From assembly GCA_001592805.2 (NCBI GenBank), contig CP051140.1:3845501-3909500 (forward strand): a stretch of DNA of 64,000 nucleotides, in the 5' to 3' direction. The notes beneath the pieces were generated by a model. The model was not told the origin of the DNA, did not search any database, and saw nothing but the letters and a program-made list of their open reading frames with translations. The translations under genes and the position numbers were made by a program. The number at the start of each line of letters is the position of its first letter. The first letter of the stretch is position 1. Positions 1,347 to 14,002 of the stretch are shown piece by piece. The stretch is from Peltaster fructicola (Eukaryota; Ascomycota; Dothideomycetes).

Positions 1347-4300
1347 CTAGACTTTCCCGCCGTCGTCCTCGTCTTCGAAGAAGCTCAGGATGGCACGAAC
1401 ACCACCTGGTCCGAGGCCGTGTGGTGGATAGCATACTAGAATAGATATCAGTAGAGGGTCATGGTTGCCAAGATGGAACTTACCGTATATCGGGTCTTCT
1501 TGCGCACCAAGCTTTTCTCTGAACTCGCTCTTCGCTGTCAGACGCAGCTCCTTCGCGATAGTCTGGTATGCTTTGCTCAGCACCTTCACTCTTGTGCCGC
1601 GCAGGTTGTGGCCAGGCGTGAACTTGGCCGAAGCACCTCCACCGAATGTCACCGACGTGGCGCCCGTGATGGCTGCAGCCTTCAATGCATGCATGACCAG
1701 GTACTCGATAGCACCTGATGGAGCTCCAGGGAAGTCCAGTGAGAACTTCACCTGCCAGCCATGCTCGTGAGAGAGCTGTGCAAGGATGACCAGACCAGCG
1801 ATCTCACCCTCCTTTGTGGTCGAGTAATGGTACTGTCTGTGAGCAACATCCTGCCATGGGTGTACGTCAGTCAAGTGGACCTGCTTGCCCTTTCGTCCTT
1901 TCAACCAGTCGTCGATTCTAGCCTCGACCTTGGTCTTGATGTCCTCAGGGATAGGTTCACCAATTGGGATATCGTGCAGCTTGATGCCCTCCCTTTCGGC
2001 GTGGCGGATCTTCTTCTGAATCTCATTGTCTCGAGCTGCAGGATTATTGCTGGGGTCAAGACGCTGCTCAGCAGCGACTGAGAATGTACGCCAGTCAAAC
2101 TTTTCGGCAAGCGTCGTTTCGCAGTGCGCACCGCATAGCAGCCACAGCGGTTTCAAGTGGCGCTCCTTCTTGATATAACGCAGGTAGCCAGAGATCGTCT
2201 TGAGATACTGCCCTCCGTGACAAAGAGGGTCGCCAACAGTGATTGCAAATCCCTGATGGGGCACGAAGCCAATAGCGGCGCCAGTTGTCTCGTCTCGCCA
2301 ATGCTCGAACTTCGGCTCAAGCCACGACGTATTTGAAGCGTCACCGTAGTTGGCGATAAGCTTCTCGATCGGCTGGAAGTCCATGGCAGCTGTGGCACGA
2401 TCTCGACCCTTCCATGGCGGCTCCAATGTGCTTGCTTCTGGATGTCTGAGTTGCTTGATAGGTGGTGTGTATGGCAGCGATCGAGGATCACGGTGGAACA
2501 TGGTTGCGTGTCGGATGTCACCAAGCTGGAGCAGCAACATCAGGATACGCTCCAGGCCAATACCTCCACCTCCGTGCGGCGGTGCTCCCCATTCGAAAGC
2601 ACTCATGTACTCGTCCATCGTCGAGGGATCCATCTTCATCTTGACCATCTTGTCCTCCAACAGGTCGGCATCGTGAATACGTTGCCCTCCAGACAAGATC
2701 TCCTGGCCACGTAGGAAGATATCAAAGGAGTTGGTGACGCCAGGGTTGGTGGGATCTGGCATTGCATAGAATGGCCGTGCAGAGACTGGGAACTTGTCGA
2801 GGATGTAGTAGTCTGTCTTGTACTTCTCCTTGATCACTTTGCCAAGCTGAATCTCGTCACGAGTGCCCAGGTCCTCATTCTCAGGTAGTGGTTGACCCTC
2901 CTCATTAGTCCAGCCAGTCTCATTGAGCATGCGAATTGCCTCTGCAAATGGCAGAATTGGAGTCTGCTCCAGCCAAACTAGATCCTCATGCGGAAATTGT
3001 CGCTTGACCAACTCGATCTCGGGCTTGTAGTTGCTATAGACGTGAGTGAAGATGGCCTTGAAAGTGCTGTCCAGAGTGCGCAAGACCTCGTGGTAGTGCA
3101 CGTCGATGGCCATCTCAAGATCAAGTCCAGTGAACTCAGTCAGATGTCGATGGGTGTTGCTGTTCTCAGCTCGGAAAACTGGACCAATCTCGAAGACCCG
3201 CCTGAAATCGGCAGACACGCCCATCTGCTTGCCAAGTTGAGGAGATTGAGCCAAGAATGCAGGTCGTCCGAAGTAGTCGACCTTGAAGACGCTTGCACCA
3301 GACTCCGATGCTGCTCCTTGTAGTTTCGGAGTGTGAATCTCGATGAAGCCGAGCGAAGATAGGTGATTGCGGAAAGCCTGGCATATACCAGACTGGATAC
3401 GGAAGATGCCCTGTGAAGAAGAGGTTCTGAGGTCGAGCACACGGCTAGCTTGTCGTGTTCGGTCTGTGATGACATGACGCTTGTCGTCCTTGTCCTTCAG
3501 GTCGATCTTGGCAACCTCTGCCTCGTGTACTGTGAAGGGAAGTGGCTCGTTCGGTTGTCCTTCCACGTGTAGCTCATGGATGTGAATCTCGACGTTGTGA
3601 ATGGACACTCCGAGGACTTCACCCTCCTTCGCCTTTGGCTCCTGGATGACTCCAGACACTCGTGCGATGGTCTCCACGTGCAAGTGTTCTGCCCAGTAGA
3701 GAAAGAACTGCGAAACATTGCCGTGCTCCTGCAGCACACCCTGGATCGTGCTCGTTTGCTGTCGTAGCTCAACGAACATGAGCTTCGCACTCATCTTTCG
3801 GATGTTGTGTAAACGCGCTCTAAAGGTGACGACCTGGCCCACCATAGATGCATTGATCGTGCGAATATCGATGTAGTTATTATCCTTATGAGCGCCGGCG
3901 TAGTTATTGATCGGCAGCACGCCATAGCTCTTCTGTTGATCCTCAGTCTCTTCTTCGTGAGCTCTCTTGATCATGTCCTCTTTGCGCTTCTTGTCAGCCT
4001 CTTTCTTTGCATCAGCATCCTTTTTCTGCTGCTCTCGCTCAACTTGTTTCTCATGTTTGCGTTGCTGGTTCTTGCTCATAGGCTCGCCATCTCTGTTGAG
4101 AGGCAGATCCTCTGTTGAAGAGTGCGAATCATCTGAGCTTGCGCCAAAGGTGAGCCTTTTTCTCAATGCACCAAGAGGGCTATGGGTCGATCTGCGGTGA
4201 TCGCTCGAGACACGACGCTTACTGTCGACTGATCCTCGTCCTTGTGCGTCAAGAGAGGCTCTTGGTGAGGGGCTGGGCGAGGAATTCCTGTCTTTACCGC

Positions 4301-4451
4301 CAAACCTGAGTGGACCAAGCTTGCCAATGCTGCGGTGACGTGTTGGTATGCCTGTGTTGCTATGTTGTACATCTGAGTCGCTTGCAGGGTCTGGTGTTGC
4401 CGAGCCATGGCGAGGCTTGAGACCGCTGAGTGCCTTCTTCAGGCTAGACAT
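1347..4451 (-). CDS. erdS: Ergosteryl-3beta-O-L-aspartate synthase (AspRS-DUF2156 fusion)
   Basis: The protein has about 1018 residues. A polar, Ser/Lys-rich N-terminus with a KKRKEDMIKRAHEEE stretch is followed by an AspRS-like OB fold (about 185-300) and a class II catalytic core. Motif 2 is visible as RAENSNTHRHLTEF and motif 3 as GGIGLERILMLLLQLGDIRH. A DUF2156 (GNAT-like aminoacyltransferase) domain follows from about residue 690. Fungal AspRS-DUF2156 fusions are known to charge tRNA-Asp and move the aspartate to ergosterol; the role here is inferred from that architecture. One intron (1436-1483, 48 nt, GTAAGT...TTCTAG) lies near the 3' end. It has no stop and is a multiple of three, so unspliced mRNA would add 16 residues; spliced, the C-terminus reads PIYVCYPPHGLGPGG, which fits the family. 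Coding exons are 4451-1484 and 1435-1347. The upstream ATG context is ACACCATG. Confidence 0.93.
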   Translation of the reverse strand: MSSLKKALSGLKPRHGSATPDPASDSDVQHSNTGIPTRHRSIGKLGPLRFGGKDRNSSPSPSPRASLDAQGRGSVDSKRRVSSDHRRSTHSPLGALRKRLTFGASSDDSHSSTEDLPLNRDGEPMSKNQQRKHEKQVEREQQKKDADAKKEADKKRKEDMIKRAHEEETEDQQKSYGVLPINNYAGAHKDNNYIDIRTINASMVGQVVTFRARLHNIRKMSAKLMFVELRQQTSTIQGVLQEHGNVSQFFLYWAEHLHVETIARVSGVIQEPKAKEGEVLGVSIHNVEIHIHELHVEGQPNEPLPFTVHEAEVAKIDLKDKDDKRHVITDRTRQASRVLDLRTSSSQGIFRIQSGICQAFRNHLSSLGFIEIHTPKLQGAASESGASVFKVDYFGRPAFLAQSPQLGKQMGVSADFRRVFEIGPVFRAENSNTHRHLTEFTGLDLEMAIDVHYHEVLRTLDSTFKAIFTHVYSNYKPEIELVKRQFPHEDLVWLEQTPILPFAEAIRMLNETGWTNEEGQPLPENEDLGTRDEIQLGKVIKEKYKTDYYILDKFPVSARPFYAMPDPTNPGVTNSFDIFLRGQEILSGGQRIHDADLLEDKMVKMKMDPSTMDEYMSAFEWGAPPHGGGGIGLERILMLLLQLGDIRHATMFHRDPRSLPYTPPIKQLRHPEASTLEPPWKGRDRATAAMDFQPIEKLIANYGDASNTSWLEPKFEHWRDETTGAAIGFVPHQGFAITVGDPLCHGGQYLKTISGYLRYIKKERHLKPLWLLCGAHCETTLAEKFDWRTFSVAAEQRLDPSNNPAARDNEIQKKIRHAEREGIKLHDIPIGEPIPEDIKTKVEARIDDWLKGRKGKQVHLTDVHPWQDVAHRQYHYSTTKEGEIAGLVILAQLSHEHGWQVKFSLDFPGAPSGAIEYLVMHALKAAAITGATSVTFGGGASAKFTPGHNLRGTRVKVLSKAYQTIAKELRLTAKSEFREKLGAQEDPIYGKFHLGNHDPLLISILVCYPPHGLGPGGVRAILSFFEDEDDGGKV

Positions 4452-13845: not shown

Positions 13846-13851
13846 AAAAAA
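13846..13851 (-). terminator. RNA polymerase III oligo-T terminator of the tRNA gene
   Basis: There is a run of six A on the plus strand, which is TTTTTT on the transcribed strand. It begins four bases past the tRNA discriminator base, the usual place and length for a Pol III stop. It supports the tRNA locus being a functional Pol III unit rather than a dead fragment. Confidence 0.85.
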
Positions 13852-13854
13852 TGA

Positions 13855-14002
13855 TGATGCGAGTGGGATTTGAACCCACGCCCTTTCGGACTAGCGATAT
13901 GTATCTTGAAGAATACCTTAAGCTAGCGCCTTAGACTATGATGACCGTTAGTAAGCGTTAATGGAGGAATTGAATCCCACTCACCCGCTCGGCCATCGCA
14001 CC
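13855..14002 (-). tRNA. tRNA-Leu(AAG): tRNA-Leu(AAG) with two introns, one GT-AG type in the D-loop
   Basis: On the minus strand the acceptor strands are GGTGCGA (14002-13996) and TCGCATC (13862-13856). They form seven pairs, one of them G-U, with discriminator A at 13855. The A box TGGCCGAGCGG (13995-13985) is followed by a 49-nt insert (13984-13936); then TCTAAGGCG resumes, so the spliced D-arm reads the standard Leu form GAGCGGTCTAAGGCG. The anticodon stem is CTAGC/GCTAG, and the loop TTAAGG places AAG at 13919-13917. A 19-nt intron (13915-13897) sits after position 37 and contains CTT complementary to the anticodon, the normal endonuclease-type intron. The variable arm is TCCGAAAGGGC. The T arm GTGGG-TTCAAAT-CCCAC holds the B box. 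All stems are intact; the mature length is 80 nt before CCA. Confidence 0.93.
13936..13984 (-). other. Putative spliceosomal intron inside the tRNA D-loop
   Basis: This 49-nt insert begins GTGAGT, has an exact TACTAAC (13953-13947) whose branch A lies 12 nt from the 3' end, and ends CATCATAG. It lies between tRNA positions 19 and 20, immediately after the A box. Its length and signals match the protein-gene introns of the window, which mostly fall between 43 and 57 nt. Excision exactly restores the consensus tRNA-Leu D-arm. The 5' half of the insert also resembles a T-arm sequence (GTGGGATTCAATTCC against GTGGGTTCAAATCCC), so an origin by duplication from the tRNA itself is possible. Confidence 0.7.

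Follow-up and report, generated by a model that had tools for sequence, protein, structure and literature searches.

A tRNA-Leu(AAG) gene of Peltaster fructicola contains, in addition to a canonical tRNA intron, a second insert with the signals of a spliceosomal intron. Judged from the sequence, this insert is very probably a U2-type spliceosomal intron in a functional tRNA gene of the Pol III type, one of 11 such genes found in the genome. The reading draws on the anatomy of the gene, on the tRNA structures that are restored when the inserts are taken out, on the recurrence of the arrangement across genes and on the likeness of the inserts to protein-gene introns.

Anatomy of the interrupted tRNA-Leu(AAG) gene

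The gene was found in a 64,000-nucleotide stretch of contig CP051140.1 (the whole stretch that was analysed, defined as “the window”). A sequence-only reading of the window had described a structurally intact tRNA-Leu(AAG) with a 19-nt intron at 37/38 and a second, 49-nt insert between positions 19 and 20. Our cloverleaf parse agrees on the tRNA and its 19-nt intron, and the insert was placed at 13984-13936 correctly to the base. Its GTGAGT start, exact TACTAAC with the branch A 12 nt from the end, and CATAG end were all seen as described. The parts of the locus, in window coordinates, are:

13855..14002, minus strand: tRNA-Leu(AAG) gene, with one canonical and one spliceosomal-type intron (sequence, cloverleaf parse)
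13985..14002, minus strand: 5′ exon, 18 bases, mature positions 1-19, with GAGCGG at its 3′ end
13985..13995, minus strand: presumed A box TGGCCGAGCGG, intact, adjoining the insert on its upstream side
13936..13984, minus strand: spliceosomal-type intron, 49 nt, site 19/20, GTGAGT...CATAG
13979..13984, minus strand: 5′ splice site GTGAGT of the insert
13947..13953, minus strand: branch site TACTAAC of the insert, branch A at 13948, 12 nt before the intron end
13916..13935, minus strand: middle exon, mature positions 20-37, beginning TCTAAGG and ending with the anticodon AAG and G37
13897..13915, minus strand: canonical tRNA intron, 19 nt, site 37/38, TATTCTTCAAGATACATAT
13855..13896, minus strand: 3′ exon, mature positions 38-73
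13866..13876, minus strand: presumed B box GGTTCAAATCC
13846..13851, minus strand: T6 run, 3 nt past the gene

The two boxes are assigned by the usual consensus, and the T6 run is presumably the Pol III terminator.

With the insert removed, the gene parses as a full cloverleaf with an anticodon stem CTAGC/GCTAG, a loop TTAAGG and a variable arm of 11 nt. ARAGORN called a Leu tRNA only when the insert had been deleted, and the anticodon was then shifted by one, to TAA. The earlier statement that removal restores the tRNA is borne out by both results. We read the anticodon as AAG because this keeps position 26 and five Watson-Crick stem pairs, and because Leu(TAA) is already represented by another gene (L012). 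For the unspliced gene ARAGORN gave a false Arg(CCT), and no Rfam family matched at E = 1 or better. A scan of the window with Rfam at the gathering score and with ARAGORN in bacterial mode gave no match, as expected because the gene is interrupted. In a genome-wide DNA search, the only match in the 19-Mb genome to the gene including its insert was the gene itself.

Elsewhere in the window, an ORF at 1347-4451 fuses a class II tRNA synthetase (Asp/Lys/Asn type) with an LPG_synthase_C domain; it resembles the fungal lipid-modifying fusion of aspartyl-tRNA synthetase. One window gene has its best named protein matches in Zasmidium, Recurvomyces, Pseudocercospora and Baudoinia, at 76-77% identity.

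The tRNA gene set of the genome

The genome totals 18,987,130 bases, divided among five contigs that range from 2.77 to 4.89 Mb. The genome report (PMC7181583) describes P. fructicola as an ectophytic Dothideomycete with 18.99 Mb in five telomere-to-telomere chromosomes (2.77 to 4.89 Mb; N50 3.68 Mb; GC 51.95%), from a nanopore assembly polished with ~256x Illumina reads. It gives a median protein intron of 50 bp and, from tRNAscan-SE, 44 tRNA genes in all; where its main text mentions tRNAs, tRNA introns are not among the subjects (PMC7181583).

A genome tRNA search combined with pattern searches turned up 44 tRNA genes, no two of which share an anticodon; 11 of them have inserts of the kind described above and 33 do not. 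Canonical introns at 37/38 occur in 34 of the 44. The nuclear tRNA set is thus near-minimal and rich in introns. The expected number of anticodons is 46; the genome searches did not turn up genes for Asn(GTT) and Val(AAC), which enter no total, and the set is to this extent incomplete.

The genome-wide RF00005 search yielded 380 candidates, 63 of which were scored, giving 28 matches. Absent anticodons were then sought by pattern searches, whose candidates were followed in part. One search returned 27 places (11 read by eye, the others being known tRNA genes) and another 26, which were judged from the printed match (two were fetched; L103 was kept and L104 rejected). Further searches gave 90 places (five examined), 12 (nine read, three already known), 8 (three examined), 7 (two), 3 (one) and 86 (two), and for one search the first 100 of 165 places were considered, those 100 including none on C4 or C5 (two examined). 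The candidates dismissed by eye were L031, L034, L037, L051, L052, L053, L055, L085, L087-L092, L094, L100, L102, L104, L105, L109, L110 and L112. In viral contigs, a 16-base exon-intron junction pattern was matched at 25 places, 0/25 with a B box within 220 bases, and these matches were taken as chance.

Eleven interrupted tRNA genes

The genome-wide tRNA searches brought the total to 12 inserts in 11 tRNA genes. They are distributed from the acceptor stem through the T-loop, and none of the 12 is at 37/38 (positions derived by hand from the parses):

Pro(CGG), L107: insert at 4/5, within the acceptor stem
Ile(AAT), L111: insert at 17/18
Leu(AAG), window gene: insert at 19/20
Pro(AGG), L042: insert at 24/25
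Glu(CTC), L108: insert at 29/30
Ser(CGA), L029, reverse strand: inserts at 39/40 and 40/41
Ser(GCT), L101: insert at 43/44
Gln(TTG), L047: insert at 51/52
Arg(TCT), L025: insert at 52/53
His(GTG), L106: insert at 57/58
Arg(TCG), L028: insert at 59/60

Nine of the 11 genes also carry a canonical intron at 37/38. In Ser(CGA), two spliceosomal-type inserts lie one base apart beside a canonical intron of 10 bases. If this two-insert reading is right, the gene possibly has a one-nucleotide exon that needs stepwise splicing. Alternatively, insert 1 is part of a longer canonical intron, at the cost of one stem mismatch (score 24.0 versus 25.7). As read from the parses, the acceptor stem of Arg(TCG) contains four wobble pairs, and those of Pro(AGG) and Pro(CGG) contain one mismatch each.

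The inserts of His and Arg(TCG) split the B box. If these two genes are transcribed, their recognition by Pol III must tolerate or bypass the split. A T4 run starts within 8 bases of the gene in nine of the 11 interrupted genes, and at +35 in His and +28 in Glu(CTC). Among 26 other tRNA genes, a T4 run was within 8 bases in 19, only beyond 20 bases in three, and absent within 70 bases in one.

An assembly error, named earlier as something that could undo the Leu(AAG) finding, is unlikely at these sites, because 11 separate loci are involved and the telomere-to-telomere nanopore assembly was polished with Illumina reads.

Splice signals in the inserts

The 12 inserts are 48-54 nt long (median 50.5), and all of them start with GT[AGT][AGT]G[TC] and end with AG. 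The branch site is CTRAY in 11 and TTGAC in one, and its A lies 10-14 nt before the insert end; such a branch site, in a pattern set after inspection of the inserts, arose in 2.9% of interior shuffles. In the window, the two strands together contain 13 matches to the strict donor/branch/acceptor motif, likewise set after inspection (0.10 per kb of strand); the locus flanks, 488.8 kb without de-duplication, contain 35 (0.07 per kb). Some of these background matches will be real introns. At these rates, chance would put ~0.1-0.2 strict motifs into the 1650 bases of sense strand of the 11 genes, where 12 were seen.

The inserts also look like the putative protein introns of this genome in their format, because the motif is enriched in GT-AG pairs that join long ORFs. 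In the window, the general motif is present in 130 of 21,632 GT-AG pairs of 40-80 bases. For pairs that join two ORFs in the window, where each overlapping pair and each reading phase is a separate count, it is present in 14 of 366 (at least 240 bases), 8 of 148 (at least 300) and 6 of 28 (at least 450). The Leu(AAG) insert had been likened in length to protein-gene introns, and its 49 nt, as well as the median of the 12, may be set beside the published protein-intron median of 50 bp (PMC7181583).

Restoration of tRNA structure by removal of the inserts

Every 40-60-base stretch was removed in turn from each gene, and the 1103-2189 products of each test were rated as cloverleaves by a scoring scheme that we devised; each Ser(CGA) test started from the gene without its other insert. 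In all 12 tests, no product outscored the GT-AG deletion. This deletion was the sole top scorer in five tests, those of Arg(TCT), Gln, His, Pro(CGG) and Glu. Ties occurred in the other seven: 31 for Leu, 1 for Pro(AGG), 2 for Arg(TCG), 151 for Ser(GCT), 5 and 2 for Ser(CGA), and 24 for Ile. In Pro(AGG) and Ser(GCT), a different GT-AG deletion was among those that tied. GT-AG deletions numbered 6-21 of 1491-2898 per test. The cloverleaf scores of the 11 genes were 15.2-24.0 before removal and 23.4-26.1 after it, and those of the 33 insert-free genes were 21.4-26.5. With these ties and the weak points noted above, exact removal restores the structure of the host tRNA, doubtfully so for insert 1 of Ser(CGA).

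ARAGORN called all 11 genes after removal versus five before. Among the spliced genes, the anticodon of Leu was shifted and Pro(CGG) was named Ser; among the unspliced genes, six were missed and four of the other five were misidentified. In unspliced form, five of the 11 genes, the window gene not included, matched the Rfam tRNA model at E up to 1, and four of these five also exceeded its gathering score. Minimum-energy folds of the mature forms were cloverleaf-like for Leu, Arg(TCT) and Arg(TCG), and not cloverleaf for Gln, His, Ser(CGA) and both Pro tRNAs. We give these folds little weight, because unmodified tRNAs often misfold in folding predictions.

Alternative explanations

Ectopic tRNA introns that are cut by the tRNA splicing endonuclease have been described from red algae and nucleomorphs. 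In Cyanidioschyzon merolae they are found in the D-loop, anticodon arm and T-loop, and in the Guillardia theta nucleomorph many are without a defined bulge-helix-bulge (PMC3978253). We consider it highly improbable that the inserts reported here are of this kind, although canonical introns are common here (in 34 of the 44 tRNA genes located). All 12 inserts combine GT, a branch site and AG within 48-54 nt, whereas none of the 34 canonical introns, with borders set at 37/38 (nine in insert genes and 25 in others), is GT-AG, and their lengths range from 7 to 69 nt. In a simple count of bulge-helix-bulge elements, the outer helix was complete at all nine canonical sites tested versus three of the 12 inserts. 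A complete central helix was present in none of the 12 inserts and at none of the canonical sites tested and does not discriminate by this count, which also found no insert with all three helices complete. Removal by the endonuclease is disfavoured because the inserts have strict splice signals and, by this simple count, no common bulge-helix-bulge geometry.

There are two further explanations. The interrupted genes could be pseudogenes killed by intron-like insertions, with intact copies or other tRNAs supplying the cell, and this we find scarcely credible. Two of the genes have a split B box, and the genome searches scored or listed part of the candidates, so an intact copy may have been missed. 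However, one gene per anticodon was found, with no intact duplicate among the candidates examined, and a second intact Leu(AAG), which had been named as grounds for rejecting the finding, was absent among the candidates scored or listed genome-wide. By the usual decoding rules, the other located tRNAs cover the codons of His(GTG), Ile(AAT) and Glu(CTC) poorly or not at all. Pseudogenes are also unlikely to retain full cloverleaves, and 12 of 12 precise GT-AG insertions with a branch site are not expected of them; the published tRNA total, moreover, is just 44 (PMC7181583). With no duplicates found and structure preserved, the pseudogene explanation is disfavoured. A mobile, introner-like element could also have spread recently into tRNA genes, the inserts being its copies. 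This would be an account of their origin only and is compatible with spliceosomal removal. The number of insertions (12, in 11 genes) points to a recurring process, and the Pro(CGG) and Ile(AAT) inserts have their first nine letters in common, but we judge a recent spread very unlikely: among the 12, no pair aligns beyond nine letters (best E ~0.065), direct border repeats do not exceed 3 nt (1-4 equivalent deletions), with no target-site duplication, and the Leu gene with its insert, the only one searched against the genome, had no other DNA match.

Predicted processing of the precursors

If the inserts are spliceosomal introns, the Leu(AAG) precursor would be transcribed with both introns. 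To excise the insert, the spliceosome would recognise its GUGAGU, UACUAAC and final AG, and the 19-nt intron at 37/38 would be excised by the tRNA endonuclease and the ends joined by the ligase. The spliceosome would probably act first, in the nucleus, and the endonuclease later. For Pro(CGG), splicing would come ahead of 5′ leader cleavage, because the first exon would otherwise be four nucleotides. The suggestion of the sequence-only reading that a tRNA precursor with a spliceosomal intron would also need the tRNA endonuclease gains support from these sequences, with ten more genes alike.

The interrupted tRNAs are probably needed by the cell, because no second copy of any of them was found among the candidates examined. 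It is likely that the spliceosome is compulsory for about one quarter of the tRNA species (11 of the 44 located), at sites across the whole molecule. Nine precursors would then use two unrelated splicing machines, and Ser(CGA) would need a spliceosomal step on either side of a one-nucleotide exon as well as an endonuclease step.

Relation to known introns

Among small structured RNAs, U6 and U3 are said to be alone in being known for frequent interruption by an intron (PMC5832005). Like the introns of fungal U6 snRNA and U3 snoRNA, the inserts combine GT-AG borders and a branch site in a small structured RNA, and U6 is also a Pol III transcript. Unlike in those systems, the hosts here are 11 tRNA genes, and the U6 of this genome is uninterrupted: we looked for an intron in it and found none, the gene being a single contiguous match of 101 bases (C5:1564325-1564425). 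Fungal U6 introns have reportedly been gained several times, and the U6 gene of Schizosaccharomyces pombe is reported to have one. Canonical nuclear tRNA introns share nine of the 11 host genes with the inserts but differ from them in that they are not GT-AG, vary in length, are located at 37/38 and are removed by another enzyme. Spliceosomal introns are known in the nuclear rRNA genes of ascomycetes, where they likewise interrupt a non-mRNA, non-Pol II gene, though one for rRNA and Pol I rather than for tRNA and Pol III. Interruptions of tRNA outside 37/38 are known in archaea as well. C. merolae and the G. theta nucleomorph resemble P. fructicola in having such interruptions, a compact genome and few tRNA genes. 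The interruptions in C. merolae are explained by a bulge-helix-bulge and the endonuclease, and most of the red-algal and nucleomorph ones by bulge-helix-bulge cutting (PMC3978253), whereas the inserts reported here have splice and branch signals.

Splicing of tRNA and splicing of mRNA are presented as separate systems, and a review of 2026 still takes the former to work independently of the spliceosome (PMC13149111); passages of PMC6461891 and PMC11782384 contain nothing contrary. Among the papers listed from the full-text literature (judged by titles and abstract openings, with subscription journals and preprints outside it), we found no report of spliceosomal introns in nuclear tRNA genes. 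Dual processing of a tRNA precursor by spliceosome and endonuclease, of which the sequence-only reading knew no description, is apparently undescribed there too. To the extent of the literature searched, what is new here is the kind of host gene, not the kind of intron.

Programs for tRNA annotation can misread or miss such genes, as ARAGORN did with the unspliced set. If the reading is true, many tRNA genes, probably single-copy, would depend on the spliceosome, which would break the separation between tRNA splicing and mRNA splicing. The spliceosome would have to accept folded Pol III transcripts, and the genes would offer a natural test of intron gain outside protein genes. Translation in P. 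fructicola would then be directly dependent on the machine that splices its mRNA.
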